From a virus: a DNA stretch of 33,625 bases. The DNA lies in the IMG/VR virus record IMGVR_UViG_3300037247_000977, positions 1 through 33,625 of that record; one strand, given 5' to 3'. Under the pieces are notes generated by a model. The model was not told the origin of the DNA, made no database searches, and saw nothing but the letters and a program-made list of their open reading frames with translations. A program made the translations under genes and the position numbers. Shown in pieces: positions 20,714 to 27,478 of this stretch; within the stretch, counting starts at the first letter, position 1; each line of letters begins with the position of its first letter.

Positions 20714-21167
20714 CTATCTTCGCCTTAATCTTAGGGTTTCTGTTCAGGAAGTCTTCCTCGTCGAATGTTTTGGCGAAATCGTCAAAAGCATCCGCAAAGT
20801 GTGTGATATCTTGAGAGGGTCTATCATCTCCGTCTTGGAAAGTATTGACATAGTGTCGAAGCATTAGCAGGTTGCAAATTACGCAGTCCAGGTGATGTTC
20901 TCCTGATTCTTCATCAATATCCTCGCCGAGCCAAAACCACTTACCCAGGTGTCGGAAGATACAGTCTAGCGGAACACTCCATGGCATCCCTTTCGCCCAG
21001 TTCCAAGATGCATACTTGAGCTTCCCCCCCATGAACACGCGGGCCGCACCGGCTAGGAGATGATAAGGTGCAAGCGTCATAGACACCTTGCCTTTGTTTG
21101 CTCGGGCACCAGAGCCTTTCGCACCACTATTTACATCCCCGACTGCCATATCTAGCTTCTTATTCAT
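20691..21167 (-). CDS. dATP/dGTP diphosphohydrolase-like protein (N-terminal-domain type)
   Basis: The 158-residue product has the core L-A-P-Y-H-L-L-A-G-A-A-R-V, G-G-K-L-K-Y-A-S-W-N-W, D-C-I-F-R-H-L-G-K-W and G-E-H-H-L-D-C-V-I-C-N-L-L-M-L. This matches the phage family named dATP/dGTP diphosphohydrolase N-terminal, an all-helical fold related to MazG-type enzymes that use acidic and His residues to bind metal. It probably acts on the nucleotide pool during replication. ATG 21167 is chosen because it overlaps the primase stop (ATGAATAA) with GGAGAG eight bases upstream; a start at 21206 would need a 47-base overlap. Substrate specificity cannot be read. Confidence 0.7.
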   Translation of the reverse strand: MNKKLDMAVGDVNSGAKGSGARANKGKVSMTLAPYHLLAGAARVFMGGKLKYASWNWAKGMPWSVPLDCIFRHLGKWFWLGEDIDEESGEHHLDCVICNLLMLRHYVNTFQDGDDRPSQDITHFADAFDDFAKTFDEEDFLNRNPKIKAKIDAERANA

Positions 21168-23904
21168 TCGTCTCTCCATGCTGTTGTACTCGAAGTTTCC
21201 CGCCACTCACAACGAATTTAGGAGCTTTCTCTCCTACTGAGGTGTCGTCGAAACTCACATTACCGATGCATACTTTATTCCCCGAGTAGTTCCCAACTGG
21301 AAACACCTCGGGCATATTTTGTCGAATCTTGCCTTTCGTCCAAACTGTTTGCTCATACGCAGACAGTGTGGACTGGAATCTATCATAGAAGTCTTTGAGT
21401 GTGAGATATTTACCATTCCTGATGAAGCAATGCTCTTGAATAAACCCTTCAAGAGGGGATCGGTGCATTTCCATGAGTGATTCTTTTGTACCCGTCTCGA
21501 TCACAGGTAACCGAAGACGAGTCAATGATTCTGGCATTGGCACAGTCATTAGAGTCTTCATAAAATGCGGGGCTTCTTCTTCGCACTTCTTTAGAAGTAG
21601 ACGCTTAGGGATTTCCTCAATCAATGGCTCCACACTAGCACAGACAATACGAGTATCTCCAGGAATAATGGGGCAGGCATCTCGCTCATTGGCAAGCTGA
21701 ATAAAGTGCAAACTGTTTCGTTGCTGGAAAACCTCCATGCCTTTACGATGAATACTGATATTCAAACTCGTAACCCATTCCTTGATCTTGTTATAAACGG
21801 TTGCCCCGGCCCGCGCAATGTTCTTTTCGTCAATAACAGCTAGGACACCATTTGCTAACTCTCCATTAAAGTCACCTTGACTAGTTATAGCTGTGTCAGC
21901 TTTGACAATGCCACCCGTCACTAACAAGGCTATAGCCTCATGAAGAATGGATTTGCCGCTGTTCTGCTGCCCGTAGAAAAACAGATATGGTAAAGGCTCA
22001 AACGGCTCCCGGAACATACAAGCGATCCAAGCAATTAGATAATCCTTACCAGCATAGATGCCCCATTTCTTGCACCAGTAGGAGTCCTTGATCGTACTAT
22101 CCAGATCGGCACCAAGATGGCTAAGAATCCTGTCCCAGTGAGGATGTTGAGGGTCATCTGTATCTGCGGCTTGGTACTTGAATTGAGCAGCACCGTAGTT
22201 CCATAGCCTCCCCCCCGGGTGCTCCGGATGGAACGGCATATTCACTAGAGTCCATTGGTTAAGAATAGCTGTGCCCATGATTTTATTCTCGTCACAAGAG
22301 GGTGACACAGCTTTTAGGACTCGAACTACATTAGATGCTGGAGATCGTACCCAGACCCCCCCGGTCCTAAGCATCCATCCCGCATCAGAATTAGCAGGTG
22401 TGCGAACAGATCGTGTGAGTGAATCAAATTCAGAGTAGTCTCGTTCTTCTTCGACAAGGTTTGTATTGATATTGCAGATGATGTGCCAGTGATCTTTCTT
22501 CTCCAGCCAGTCATCAAAACCAACATCCCCCTCCCATTTAGCAATTTCACAAATCAGTCGTCCATCCTTATGGCGTCTCAGGGTAGTCTCTCGGCCTTCA
22601 TACTTGTTCTTTTCAGGCAAGAGGAGCTTAGCTCCAATAGCTTTAACTGCATTCTGTGCAAGATCTGCTGATGCAAAGATATAGCTTCCTTTTTCATTCT
22701 CCCTACCGCCATAAGCTAAACATGCTTGACGGAGTTTAGGCTGCCAGTTGAACTTAGTCCAAGTCCAGCCTACATCGTCTTGACTCCATAGCTTATGTTC
22801 TGGAGTACCCTTGCCAAAACGATAAACCAACCATGATCCTTTTGGTCCTGGAATAATAAATGCGTTCGGCTTTCCTAAGTCTGATCCGCCAGAGAGAGTC
22901 TCAAAGAATCCTTTCATCGGATGGCCGTCTTCGGCCCACTTATCATGAACGATCTTTAAGGCCCTGGTATGTGTGTGCGCGAGATGGTGGTCTGCGATCC
23001 ATATCACACTGGCCCCTGTTTGTTCCAAATCATTCAAAATGGCTTTGTGTACGTCATTCAGTTCATACTTGATTCGAGCCGACGCGAGTTCAGCTAAAGA
23101 ATCTTGATCGTCAATCTTCTTTCCATCCTCGCCATAACCTACGACGCGAATCTTAGTCTTACTACCGGAAGTGATGACTTCTAAATGATCTCGCCAATTG
23201 GGCGGCATATCGTCAGCCGTGAGGGGTTGCTGTGCTTTCTTAATCCATTCATATCCTCCGTTTTCAGGAGTCGCCTTCTTTCCCCAGATCCACATTATCT
23301 GACCACATACATCTAAATGACTCCCGAAGTCAAAGCCGACTTCAGTTGACATTTTCCCAAGCAAAGCACGAGCAACGGCACTATGTTCATTATGGTTAGC
23401 AGTCTTAGGAGTATTTTCCCTGTCGAACCTGATGTATAAATGAATGCCCTTCCCGCCCGTAGACTTGATAACATCTACATAAGGGAGAGCCATCGCCTTC
23501 TCCTTGACCTCTTCTAGCTGATAATCGTCAATACCAACACCAGGGGCGTGGCCTGTAATATCATCAAAGTCATAACCAATGTGATAAGACTCACGATTGA
23601 CCCAGTTCCAGCCAGTTGTTCCTATGAATGTGCAATGATCCTCAAGAAGAAACTCAAGCTCGCGATCACGCCAGTAAGGTTCCGCCATCGCATTTCTTGG
23701 CCACCTGATATGCGACCATACGTCGCCCTTTCCATCGGTCCATGCGTTTCTACGTTCCTCTACAGGAAACCCTCCCTCTGGGGAAACGAATACTTGAGTC
23801 TCAAGCTGTGGACTCCACCAAGATATCAATTGCGGGTTATTGTGCTTTCCTTGATCTACAAGAGAGTTAAGAAAGTTTGCGACGGCTTCTGTTATGAGTG
23901 CCAT
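21160..23904 (-). CDS. AEP primase fused to SF3 helicase (primase-helicase)
   Basis: The 914-residue product joins two replication activities. Residues about 90-210 carry archaeo-eukaryotic primase motifs: Y-D-F-D-D (111-115), S-T-G-G-K-G-I-H-L-Y (148-157) and H-L-D-V-C-G-Q (196-202). Residues about 620-770 form an SF3 AAA+ helicase: Walker A G-Q-Q-N-S-G-K-S (645-652), Walker B L-A-V-I-D-E-K-N (688-695), a sensor Asn in F-I-Q-L-A-N-E (near 739) and an Arg in G-D-T-R-I-V (near 752). The roughly 400 residues between are not recognised and contain H-H-L-A-H-T-H-T and several Trp-rich strands. As a fused protein it would prime, and perhaps extend, DNA at the fork while unwinding it. It is the main gene of the leftward block. 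Confidence 0.9.
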   Translation of the reverse strand: MALITEAVANFLNSLVDQGKHNNPQLISWWSPQLETQVFVSPEGGFPVEERRNAWTDGKGDVWSHIRWPRNAMAEPYWRDRELEFLLEDHCTFIGTTGWNWVNRESYHIGYDFDDITGHAPGVGIDDYQLEEVKEKAMALPYVDVIKSTGGKGIHLYIRFDRENTPKTANHNEHSAVARALLGKMSTEVGFDFGSHLDVCGQIMWIWGKKATPENGGYEWIKKAQQPLTADDMPPNWRDHLEVITSGSKTKIRVVGYGEDGKKIDDQDSLAELASARIKYELNDVHKAILNDLEQTGASVIWIADHHLAHTHTRALKIVHDKWAEDGHPMKGFFETLSGGSDLGKPNAFIIPGPKGSWLVYRFGKGTPEHKLWSQDDVGWTWTKFNWQPKLRQACLAYGGRENEKGSYIFASADLAQNAVKAIGAKLLLPEKNKYEGRETTLRRHKDGRLICEIAKWEGDVGFDDWLEKKDHWHIICNINTNLVEEERDYSEFDSLTRSVRTPANSDAGWMLRTGGVWVRSPASNVVRVLKAVSPSCDENKIMGTAILNQWTLVNMPFHPEHPGGRLWNYGAAQFKYQAADTDDPQHPHWDRILSHLGADLDSTIKDSYWCKKWGIYAGKDYLIAWIACMFREPFEPLPYLFFYGQQNSGKSILHEAIALLVTGGIVKADTAITSQGDFNGELANGVLAVIDEKNIARAGATVYNKIKEWVTSLNISIHRKGMEVFQQRNSLHFIQLANERDACPIIPGDTRIVCASVEPLIEEIPKRLLLKKCEEEAPHFMKTLMTVPMPESLTRLRLPVIETGTKESLMEMHRSPLEGFIQEHCFIRNGKYLTLKDFYDRFQSTLSAYEQTVWTKGKIRQNMPEVFPVGNYSGNKVCIGNVSFDDTSVGEKAPKFVVSGGKLRVQQHGETNE

Positions 23905-23907
23905 ATA

Positions 23908-24366
23908 CTATACCTTGTTCAAAACTGAAAATTCGCCATGATATTTCTTAGCCGCCTTGTTGTAAGCGAGGGCGGCTTCTTTCTTATCGTCGAAGTATCC
24001 AGGATATTTAAGCTTTCCATTTACCCTTATCCGAGCACCCCATTTCTCATTTCGCTTATCCCAAAAAACGCCAACATAGCCGGAAGTATTATTGCTTTGC
24101 TTTCCGCGATTACAGTTATTCTGATAGCGGGTCGCTGGTCGAAGATTGCATCTGCAATTATTCACACCATCTCGATTTATGTGGTCAGAATCTTCAAAAT
24201 ACTTGAAACCCATACGTTCGAGAATCACGCGATGCATGAATATTAGTCGCTTAGGACCACGACGAGCAGCATACCCCCTATTATACTACCACTTCCACTG
24301 CATCAGATATTTATAGTCCTCCGCATCAACGAGGGCTACCTTACCCTGCGTAAGAGGTATTGTCAT
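23908..24366 (-). pseudogene. HNH-AP2 homing endonuclease interrupted by an amber codon
   Basis: From ATG 24366 the frame reads T-I-P-L-T-Q-G-K-V-A-L-V-D, Y-K-Y-L-M-Q-W-K-W and then TAG at 24286-24288. It continues in the same frame with Y-N-R-G-Y-A-A-R-R, M-H-R-V-I-L-E-R, D-H-I-N-R-D-G-V-N-N-C-R (HNH) and an AP2 domain ending E-F-S-V-L-N-K-V. The paralogue at 19812-20277 has Tyr codons at the matching place, so one base change explains the stop. A restart at ATG 24237 would still include the HNH core and AP2 domain, lacking only the N-terminal 43 codons, so residual activity is possible. The stop lies three bases before the primase start. Confidence 0.75.
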
Positions 24367-24430: not shown

Positions 24431-24460
24431 TTGCCGTACACTTGCCTTCTATTGGATAAT
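24431..24460 (+). promoter_or_regulatory. Candidate sigma70-type promoter, rightward (ParB block)
   Basis: TTGCCG (24431-24436) and GATAAT (24455-24460) are 18 bases apart. The -10 region is embedded in the palindrome CTATT-GGAT-AATAG (24449-24462), which is a likely operator. The same arrangement is found in the opposite direction at 24738-24709, which supports both. Confidence 0.55.
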
Positions 24461-24497
24461 AGGCAATTCAGCTACGAAACGGAAGGAAATAATGGAA
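24449..24497 (+). repeat. Inverted repeat, left copy (promoter -10 and 5' leader)
   Basis: This 49-base segment matches the reverse complement of 24672-24720 without gaps at 40 of 49 positions. Shared blocks are the -10 palindrome with AGGCAA after it, and GAAACGGAAGGA followed by AATGGAA. The two copies point toward each other, with about 175 bases between. Confidence 0.85.
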
Positions 24498-24518
24498 AAA
24501 ATACTAAATTCACCTTAA
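24492..24518 (+). CDS. Possible leader peptide of the ParB transcript (8 residues)
   Basis: ATG 24492 follows GGAAGGAAATA and opens a frame M-E-K-I-L-N-S-P ending at TAA 24516. It lies about 30 bases after the predicted transcription start. The equivalent frame on the other strand, with the same ribosome site, begins with the same M-E. Translation of such a short ORF could control downstream expression; no regulatory structure was proved. Confidence 0.35.
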   Translation: MEKILNSP

Positions 24519-24579
24519 TGGGGGGTTCTGAATGTACCGACGAGTTAATAAATCAGTTAATAGTTATGGAGTTAAGCCA

Positions 24580-24597
24580 AAAAGTGAGTTCACTTTT
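24580..24597. promoter_or_regulatory. 18-bp palindrome in the control region (operator or hairpin)
   Basis: AAAAGTGA and TCACTTTT flank a central GT. It lies near the middle between the two promoter copies. Neither strand has a proper T tract directly after it beyond the stem bases, so an operator or origin element is as likely as a terminator. Confidence 0.4.
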
Positions 24598-24638
24598 CCA
24601 AAAAACATCTTACTGATCTAGGCGGAGTATATATTCCA

Positions 24639-24677
24639 TTAACTCTTAACACCCACTAAAAATCCTGGAAATTCCAT
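24639..24677 (-). CDS. Possible leader peptide of the replication transcript (12 residues)
   Basis: On the - strand ATG 24677 follows GGAAGGAGAAA and opens M-E-F-P-G-F-L-V-G-V-K-S, ending at TAA 24641-24639. It is placed like the 8-residue ORF of the opposite copy. Conservation of ribosome site and start codon while the later codons diverge suggests translation initiation, not peptide sequence, is what matters. Confidence 0.35.
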   Translation of the reverse strand: MEFPGFLVGVKS

Positions 24678-24720
24678 TTTCTCCTTCCGTTTCACAGCGA
24701 TTTTGCCTATTATTCAATAG
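24672..24720 (-). repeat. Inverted repeat, right copy (promoter -10 and 5' leader)
   Basis: Reverse-complement partner of 24449-24497. It keeps the -10 palindrome, the Shine-Dalgarno-like GGAAGGAG and the ATG of a leader ORF, whereas the bases after the ATG differ from the left copy. Confidence 0.85.
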
Positions 24721-24738
24721 AGGTGTGGACATGGACAA
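24709..24738 (-). promoter_or_regulatory. Candidate sigma70-type promoter, leftward (replication block)
   Basis: On the - strand TTGTCC (24738-24733) and AATAAT (24714-24709) are 18 bases apart, with the palindrome CTATT-GAAT-AATAG at 24720-24707. The -35 box overlaps the ParB start codon at 24731, so transcription leftward and translation initiation of ParB use the same bases. Confidence 0.55.
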
Positions 24739-25654
24739 CCAAGTGGCGCATATCGAACTTACACAACTACGCGAGTGTAGGGTTCAGCTTCGACCGGTAG
24801 ATAAAAGGACAGTAGAATACCGTGAATTGCGTGACTCCATCAAAACTCATGGTTTATGGCAACCAATCTTGGTTAGGCCAGCAGCCAATGGCGCATTTGA
24901 AGTAGTGGATGGCTTTTATCGTTACAGTTGTTGTAGAGAATTACACCATTCAACTATCCCGTGTCTTATACGTGAGTTAACTGATGCAGAAGTGATTGTC
25001 GTTCAGATTCAAGCTAATGCCGTCAGGTTGGAGACTGACCCAATTGATTACGCCCGTCATATCTGGCGAATTATTAAGGAAGATAATGCAATGACGATCG
25101 GGCAAGTGGCGCATGTGGTGAAGAAAAGCCCAATGTGGGTAAGGAGGATGTTGAAGATTACTAGGCTCTGTTCCGAAGTGAGTACTGCTGTACGGCGCGG
25201 GCAGTTGTCAATTACAATAGCGCATGAATTTGCAAAACTCACTGCCCCGTTGCAGCGAGAATTATTAGCGCAAGCCTTAGTAATTCCAGCCATTGATTTT
25301 CTTCCTGTTATTAGAGCTAGGGTGAAAAAGTTCAGAGAGGCAGTTAAGAATGGCAGCATGGAAGTTTACTATCGCTCGTTTGTCGAGCCGGTGGCGCATC
25401 TTCGCAAGATGAGACACCTCAAGGCAGAGTTGAAAAATCCTACAAGAGGTGCAACTTTGGCATTACGGATGGGATTGGAGACACCTATGGATGGGTGGAA
25501 TTTGTGTTTGAAATGGGTTTTACACCTTGATCCTGATGCAGTAGTGGAGCAGAAAAAGAAGCTCGCTTTTCGGCACGATCAGGACATTAAACAGGCCGAG
25601 CTACGTAAACAAGATCGAGAGACTTTGAGAACTGGAGAATTGGAAAATGAGTAA
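24731..25654 (+). CDS. ParB-like nuclease-domain protein (DNA-binding)
   Basis: ATG 24731 is chosen because AGAGG lies eight bases upstream; GTG 24725 is too close to it. The 307-residue product has a ParB N-terminal domain: I-K-T-H-G-L-W-Q-P-I-L-V-R-P, F-E-V-V-D-G-F-Y-R-Y (the usual 'GERR-Y/W' region) and T-I-P-C-L-I-R-E-L-T-D-A-E. Helices follow, with a helix-turn-helix at about 115-145 (T-I-G-Q-V-A-H-V-V-K-K-S-P-M-W-V-R-R-M-L). No ParA is nearby, so it more likely regulates or acts on phage DNA than partitions a plasmid. It is the first gene of the rightward block and may bind the repeats just upstream. The stop overlaps the next gene by eight bases. Confidence 0.8.
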   Translation: MDNQVAHIELTQLRECRVQLRPVDKRTVEYRELRDSIKTHGLWQPILVRPAANGAFEVVDGFYRYSCCRELHHSTIPCLIRELTDAEVIVVQIQANAVRLETDPIDYARHIWRIIKEDNAMTIGQVAHVVKKSPMWVRRMLKITRLCSEVSTAVRRGQLSITIAHEFAKLTAPLQRELLAQALVIPAIDFLPVIRARVKKFREAVKNGSMEVYYRSFVEPVAHLRKMRHLKAELKNPTRGATLALRMGLETPMDGWNLCLKWVLHLDPDAVVEQKKKLAFRHDQDIKQAELRKQDRETLRTGELENE

Positions 25655-26575: not shown

Positions 26576-27478
26576 ATGAGTCCGAGGCAAATCATGTTAT
26601 TGAGTTTTGGCGCATTGTTAGGTTTGGTCGTACTTATTGGCGGCTACCAGTGCATTAAAACAGTTTCGGCCGGCCATGTTGGGGTAGCAACACTGTTTGG
26701 AAATGTGGTGGATGACACCTATTCGGAAGGGATGCATTTTCCAGTCAATCCATTCTACAAATGGGACTCTTATGATGTTCGGGAGAAAAGTTTGAATGTT
26801 CGTAGGGTTCCAATGCCCACGAGCGACCAGCAAGTATCTCTGATTGATATTAGCGTCCAGTATCGAATTAATTCGGCTGCTTGTTCACGGGCTAAGTCTA
26901 ATGTTGGCTTGGTTAATTCTATTGTCAGCGTGAAGATTGAACCGAATATCCGATCTCTCCTTCGCTCGGAGGGCAAGGCGGTTACCCGCTGCGAGGATTT
27001 GTTTAATAATTCAATTCAGCAAAAAATGCAACTCAATCTTGCTGCAAACTTGCAAAAGAGAGTTGGTGACTATGTTATTGTCACTGCTGTGTTAATCCGC
27101 AACATTGATCTTCCTGCTCATATCAAAACAGCTATCAAGAATAAGAAAGTTCGAGAACAGCAGGCTGAGGAGCAGAAAGCTGAATTGGCTCGCTTTAAGA
27201 CAGAACAGGAACAGCAGGTTGCTGTCGCTGCCGCCGAGCGTCTTGCCGCCGAGGAGCGAGCTGCCATGAAGCGAACTCTGGCTGATGCTGAAGCTTATGA
27301 GATTGAGAAAGTTAATGCAGCTTTGGCGGATAGCTCCGCCTATATTAGGCTGCGAGCATTGGAGACGCTGGAGGGTATGGCTGATGACCCTGCTACAAAG
27401 ATTTACTTCTTGAACGGCGATTCGCCCACTCCGTTGCCTCTGATGCACCTAGGTGAAATTGGCGCAGTTACTAAGTGA
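26576..27478 (+). CDS. SPFH/band-7 membrane protein (prohibitin/HflC-like)
   Basis: The 300-residue product has an N-terminal membrane span (about residues 5-26), then the SPFH domain: V-S-A-G-H-V-G-V-A-T-L-F-G-N-V, G-M-H-F-P-V-N-P-F-Y, V-S-L-I-D-I-S-V-Q-Y-R-I-N, and later L-I-R-N-I-D-L-P-A-H-I-K-T-A-I. A Glu/Ala/Lys-rich coiled coil follows (about 190-260). Band-7 proteins form large rings or cages in membranes and in bacteria control membrane proteases such as FtsH. A phage copy could change host membrane protein turnover or superinfection behaviour; this is inference. ATG 26576 follows TTAGGAGA. A terminator lies after the gene. Confidence 0.9.
   Translation: MSPRQIMLLSFGALLGLVVLIGGYQCIKTVSAGHVGVATLFGNVVDDTYSEGMHFPVNPFYKWDSYDVREKSLNVRRVPMPTSDQQVSLIDISVQYRINSAACSRAKSNVGLVNSIVSVKIEPNIRSLLRSEGKAVTRCEDLFNNSIQQKMQLNLAANLQKRVGDYVIVTAVLIRNIDLPAHIKTAIKNKKVREQQAEEQKAELARFKTEQEQQVAVAAAERLAAEERAAMKRTLADAEAYEIEKVNAALADSSAYIRLRALETLEGMADDPATKIYFLNGDSPTPLPLMHLGEIGAVTK

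Follow-up and report, generated by a model that had tools for sequence, protein, structure and literature searches.

Two mirror-image copies of a putative phage-specific promoter, read as back-to-back, between the replication and ParB operons of uncultured phages

The promoters recognised by the sigma factors of phages phiEco32 and 7-11 carry long, near-identical intergenic motifs that were found by pairwise comparison, and long repeats also occur at the promoters of Xp10 (PMC4331800). In phiEco32 and 7-11 these motifs lie upstream of middle and late operons, including the operon of the sigma gene itself, and are hard to detect with standard motif methods (PMC4331800). A face-to-face promoter switch is attributed to coliphage 186 (Dodd 1990, as cited in PMC3004801), while in Cluster O mycobacteriophages the divergent promoters PL1 and PR2 lie in one AT-rich intergenic region of genomes with a genome-wide repeated motif and a ParB-like protein (PMC4351075). 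The locus analyzed here resembles the latter in combining what appear to be divergent promoters in one intergenic region with a repeated motif and a ParB-like protein. It lies in a virus record of 33,625 nt (hereafter the window), a fragment of a larger phage that ends 9 kb downstream of parB, and consists of an inverted repeat that a preliminary description had taken for two promoters pointing at each other. We consider it very probable that the two arms are instead copies of one phage-specific promoter, placed back-to-back and directed outward, with a third copy at the packaging operon in relatives, the activity and timing of all copies being deduced from sequence.

The inverted repeat and its neighborhood

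The arms of the repeat (24448–24497 and 24672–24721) are 50 nt long each, lie 174 nt apart and are complementary at 41 of 50 positions. The pair had an E-value of 6e−9 when the record was searched against itself, and its ungapped score was 27.5, whereas 40 shuffled versions of this region reached 13.0 at most, so that the inverted repeat claimed earlier (40/49) was borne out. All the motif pieces listed for it (CTATT-N4-AATAG, AGGCAA, GAAACGGAAGGA, and ATGGAA) were found in the repeat, and its core is present in two copies only within the window (0.05 expected by chance). Based on the repeat, the nearest relative and the two-block profile described below, the right arm (24672–24721, + strand) would be a rightward promoter copy leading into the ParB-like operon, with a –35-like block CTTCCG at 24684–24689 (also found at the matching place in the nearest relative), a –10-like TATTAT at 24708–24713 and transcription expected to start near 24718–24721, an interval rather than an exact site. 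Its outer edge carries AGAGGTG (24719–24725, +), by its sequence the likely ribosome-binding site of parB. The left arm (24448–24497, – strand), for which the repeat, the shuffles and the two-block profile are the evidence, would be the leftward copy, with CTTCCG at 24485–24480 and TATTAT at 24461–24456, both on the – strand.

The left part of the window encodes a coat protein, a tape measure and tail genes, and the repeat sits between leftward replication genes (primase, dATP/dGTP diphosphohydrolase and exonuclease) and a rightward operon of the ParB-like protein and small genes. The first gene of the latter (24731–25654, +) encodes ParB_N and HTH_ParB domains (PF02195, 2.9e−14; PF17762, 3.4e−6) with homology to Noc/Spo0J (PDB); an SPFH/Band 7 membrane protein is encoded in the same operon (26576–27478, +). 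The leftward operon is headed by a primase-helicase (21160–23904, –; phrog_1156, 2.5e−19; PF19263), whose gene in one relative is interrupted by ~960 nt inserted between residues 347 and 349 (L131:7011–7975), a possible intein or intron. Between left arm and primase lies an HNH/AP2 endonuclease gene of homing type (23908–24366, –) that is interrupted by an in-frame TAG and likely a decayed pseudogene; HNH genes also occur upstream of the primase in relatives (three copies in L116, a broken one in L117), and this site seems to have been invaded repeatedly. The dATP/dGTP diphosphohydrolase (PF18909; 20694–21206, –) adjoins the AEP-like primase-helicase and a DnaQ-like exonuclease, an arrangement that recalls 2-aminoadenine phages; no PurZ-like gene was found in 18 records and the idea of a Z-genome was dropped.

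The spacer between the arms (24498–24671) contains repeats facing each other, with GAGTTAA at 24542–24548 and 24569–24575 (+) and TTAACTC at 24639–24645 (–), as well as a perfect 18-nt palindrome (24580–24597). The spacer repeats of the window are not significant on their own (p = 0.14); the nearest relative has the same geometry (AGTTAAT at spacer positions 42+, 68+, and 137–), and strong iterons facing each other (AGTGGAT, 6–10 copies) occur in the spacers of four other loci (L117, L118, L120, and L137). It is plausible that the spacer serves as a replication origin or a binding array.

Conservation, third copy and turnover in uncultured relatives

No DNA relatives were found among cultured phage records, and none among viral contigs with the ParB-like protein alone as query. 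Searches with the primase, and then with a primase alignment, gave about 100 loci, four of which are in bacterial bins (three Planctomycetota and one Anaerolinea). In the Planctomycetota bin of L213, the phage segment occupies 33–71 kb of a 444-kb contig on which ABC transporter genes of host type are found from 265 kb onward, a hint that the contig contains a prophage or is a chimera; our literature search found nothing on point about Planctomycetota phages of this kind. A scan with short motifs yielded 112 contigs, whose motif matches were at chance level. The divergent layout (primase leftward, ParB-like protein rightward) is present in about 62 distinct loci after removal of duplicates, and the search of relatives for the repeat, which the preliminary description had named as a check, recovered an inverted repeat with one arm < 100 nt from the parB start in 51 of the 62. 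The other 11 are without an arm near parB, and among these L168, L170, and L202 have a strong repeat further off.

The nearest relative, L141, whose primase and ParB are 75% and 67% identical to those of the window, has arms that match each other at 50 of 57 positions and are unlike those of the window except for CTTCCG and TAGAGG at matching places. In L120 the arm extends across both the ribosome site and the ATG of parB, and one clade lacks the spacer, its arms being joined into a ~90-nt palindrome. Many genomes of one clade (L149, L158, L160, and kin) have a small palindrome, GCGTTTATACGC or GCGTGTAAACGC, in the primase 5′ leader downstream of the putative left promoter, possibly an operator or leader element, and a fourth promoter-like copy, 78% identical, lies inside the spacer of the L178 genome (L226; G023:2372–2422).

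Averaged over 46 genomes, the arms share ~20 nt at the outer edge (an edge sharpened by the choice of arms for within-genome similarity) and a second block 33–37 nt inside, and outside the outer edge their identity is that of the background. Motif discovery returned the outer motif only (TnTAnTrTAGGTG), and this was modest. The genomes of L120, L140, and L137 contain exact matches of 19–20 nt to the arms at a distance of ~40–43 kb; each lies no more than some 60 nt ahead of one and the same ~178-codon gene, in outward sense. BLAST searches with the arms of 24 genomes yielded further cases. A single third copy, 25–55 kb away, in outward sense and just upstream of this gene, is present in 12 of 12 testable genomes, i.e., those with called arms in which the site was located by the gene itself. 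Over these 12, the third copy scored on average 26.8 against the genome’s own arm, compared with 7.6 for the reversed arm and 7.9 for the arms of other genomes; the weakest were L213 (11.5) and L143 (13.0). In a further genome, L215, TTTTGGCGTTTATA is found both at the third-copy site and in the inverted repeat, and alignments of the three copies display the two blocks again. The downstream gene appears to encode a small terminase subunit, judged by an N-terminal zinc-knuckle motif and without a family match, and in G017 it is followed by the genes for the large terminase subunit and the portal. The 33.6-kb window does not include the third copy. Together with the two blocks, the third outward copies suggest that the arms are the divergent members of a promoter set for three operons.

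Arm identity is 0.77 within a genome (inflated by the same choice of arms), 0.31 between genomes with 45–60% ParB identity and 0.16 at 30–45%, with 0.12 for random sequence. Even in L117 and L118, whose ParB proteins are 93% identical and whose intergenic DNA is nearly collinear, the same three-base block is changed in both arms (GGCGTA/GAGCTA). The blocks match in most genomes while the stretch between them differs among copies, a pattern more readily explained by selection through a shared recognizing factor than by plain copying: the copies would change together because all must fit one factor, and the stretch between the blocks would drift. In L120 and L140 near-identity extends past the blocks, a sign that recent copying probably contributed there too. 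The set thus appears to be alike within a phage and replaced wholesale between phages, with all copies in step; a literature search on concerted evolution of phage promoters found nothing on point.

Direction of the promoters and competing explanations

On the face-to-face reading of the preliminary description, a rightward start would lie near 24467 and a leftward one near 24702, and the two mutually antisense transcripts would run across the spacer from opposite sides; coliphage 186 offers a parallel. The window does contain good sigma-70-like inward hexamers (TTGCCG 18 nt before GATAAT and TTGTCC 18 nt before AATAAT), and an E. coli sigma-70 matrix scores –35/–10 pairs there at 8.5 and 7.3 inward and at 5.1 and 5.5 outward; over the whole set the inward –10s are slightly above the outward ones (z 0.8 vs. 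0.2), which does not settle the direction. The TTGnC boxes at equal 18-nt distance are present as claimed, but both lie outside the repeated arms, where the 46 genomes share nothing and where inward –35s would have to be; neither is retained in L141, and the right one is the reverse complement of the ParB codons ATG GAC AA (Met-Asp-Asn), hence coding sequence. The common inward leader and ribosome site fared no better, as both the inward ATG and the inward ribosome site are missing from L141 and the inward ATGs head frames of just 8 and 12 codons. The shared inner block at 33–37 nt, the lack of shared sequence outside the arms, the position of the right arm directly at the parB start in relatives and the outward sense of every third copy lead us to read the promoters, on present evidence, as back-to-back and firing outward, and face-to-face promoters as very improbable. 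Two promoter-like copies on an inverted repeat, recognizable by one factor, are retained from the earlier account; antisense overlap of the transcripts is disfavored, and the contrast it drew with usual back-to-back promoters falls away, the pair itself being best read as such. The novelty suggested for face-to-face phage promoters does not hold either, as they were already known in coliphage 186 (Dodd 1990, cited in PMC3004801).

Other explanations keep the repeat and assign it a different role. The arms might be operators beside promoters, bound by the ParB-like protein or a repressor whose binding would maintain their likeness: the neighboring gene encodes a ParB/Noc-like protein, and several lineages have a partial palindrome in the outer block (CTATT-N4-AATAG in the window, CTAC-N8-GTAG in L117). 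We regard this as unlikely, as the blocks are oriented rather than symmetric, their –10/–35 spacing and fixed relation to gene starts favor promoters, and the likeness of arms does not follow that of the ParB HTH more closely than common ancestry predicts (partial rho 0.10). A structural or recombination element (an origin hairpin, or an invertible segment with arms kept alike by recombination) would account for the iteron-bearing spacer flanked by arms, the ~90-nt palindrome of one clade and the near-identity over 60–77 nt in L120 and L140, which suggests copying. Yet the arms have a lone third counterpart 25–55 kb away that changes along with them, which makes an inverted pair unnecessary; the sequence separating the blocks can diverge freely, and the spacers of the close relatives compared (window/L141 and L117/L118) are collinear, with no inverted orientation among these few pairs; such an element has, in our view, a very small chance of being the explanation. 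T7-type single-subunit RNA polymerases typically use promoters that resemble each other inside one phage and differ from phage to phage, and outward promoters of that kind, used by such a polymerase instead of a sigma factor, would match the likeness within and difference between the phages considered here. We hold this to be the least probable of all the explanations: PF00940 had no match in 13 large relatives (a search in which the control was also silent), sigma-like genes are present instead, and each genome has only three promoter copies.

Candidate sigma factor and comparison with phage promoter sets

For the two outward promoters and their third copy, the proposed recognition sequence is a ~20-nt block that comprises the –10 region and start and extends to the outer edge, plus a block around –35. 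Leftward firing from the left arm would transcribe the primase-helicase (replication) operon and rightward firing from the right arm the ParB-like/early operon, and the third copy, in relatives, would serve the packaging operon, with one factor able to switch on all three together. This factor could be a sigma-70-like protein of the phage, which would then act in positive feedback. Such a protein was recognized in G020 (phrog_351, 1.8e−10), and a search with an alignment of nine such proteins detected homologues in 24 of 34 records, among them the distant lineages G001, G004, G007, and G011, and none in a few large contigs (G002, G018, and G023). In 19 of 19 genomes with both positions known, the sigma gene is on the parB strand, 12–42 kb downstream of parB; it is absent from the window, which stops short of that distance. 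A weak sigma-region-4 match in an orthologous gene of 410–535 aa was rejected, the product being a metallophosphoesterase/exonuclease with an HTH rather than a sigma factor. The similarity of arms to that of sigma proteins had a partial rho of 0.08 (0.17 for region 4), no clear link beyond shared descent. As this correlation is no stronger than descent predicts, we put the sigma-70-like protein downstream of parB forward tentatively as the likeliest candidate, with a little less than an even chance of being the recognizing factor and thereby of giving positive feedback.

Somewhat more tentatively still, a large group of uncultured phages may use a private promoter of which copies stand at three fixed sites (replication, ParB/early and packaging), all repeatedly rewritten together as the phage’s own sigma factor changes, which would amount to dozens of matched and mutually foreign sigma-promoter pairs in one gene layout. 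If true, the direction of the earlier finding would be corrected and a single repeat would become a family-wide rule (alike within a phage, replaced between phages), sigma-promoter coevolution could be tested on dozens of natural pairs, the transcription units of uncultured phages could be predicted without cultures, and mutually foreign sigma-promoter pairs could be used as tools.

In coliphage 186, two phage promoters share one control region; there they converge and interfere, whereas here the evidence points to divergence. The repeat of Cluster O mycobacteriophages differs in being a 17-bp palindrome in > 30 copies that is separate from their SigA-like promoters (PMC4351075). The closest likeness is to phiEco32 and 7-11: a motif of > 20 nt that points into gene starts recurs in more than one intergenic region of a genome (three copies in 12 of 12 testable relatives; two copies in the window). 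A sigma-like gene is encoded in 24 of 34 relatives’ records and absent from the window fragment, and its position downstream of the putative parB promoter recalls phiEco32-like phages, in which the sigma gene follows such promoters (PMC4331800). In contrast to those phages, there are three copies here in a fixed layout, two of them forming, between primase and parB, a mirror-image pair read as divergent; the sigma family, hosts and genomes are others, and the putative promoter sequence turns over between close relatives. We therefore regard the arms as a probable variant of the phage-sigma promoter sets of the phiEco32/7-11 type, distinguished by a mirror-image pair and by fast, coordinated turnover.
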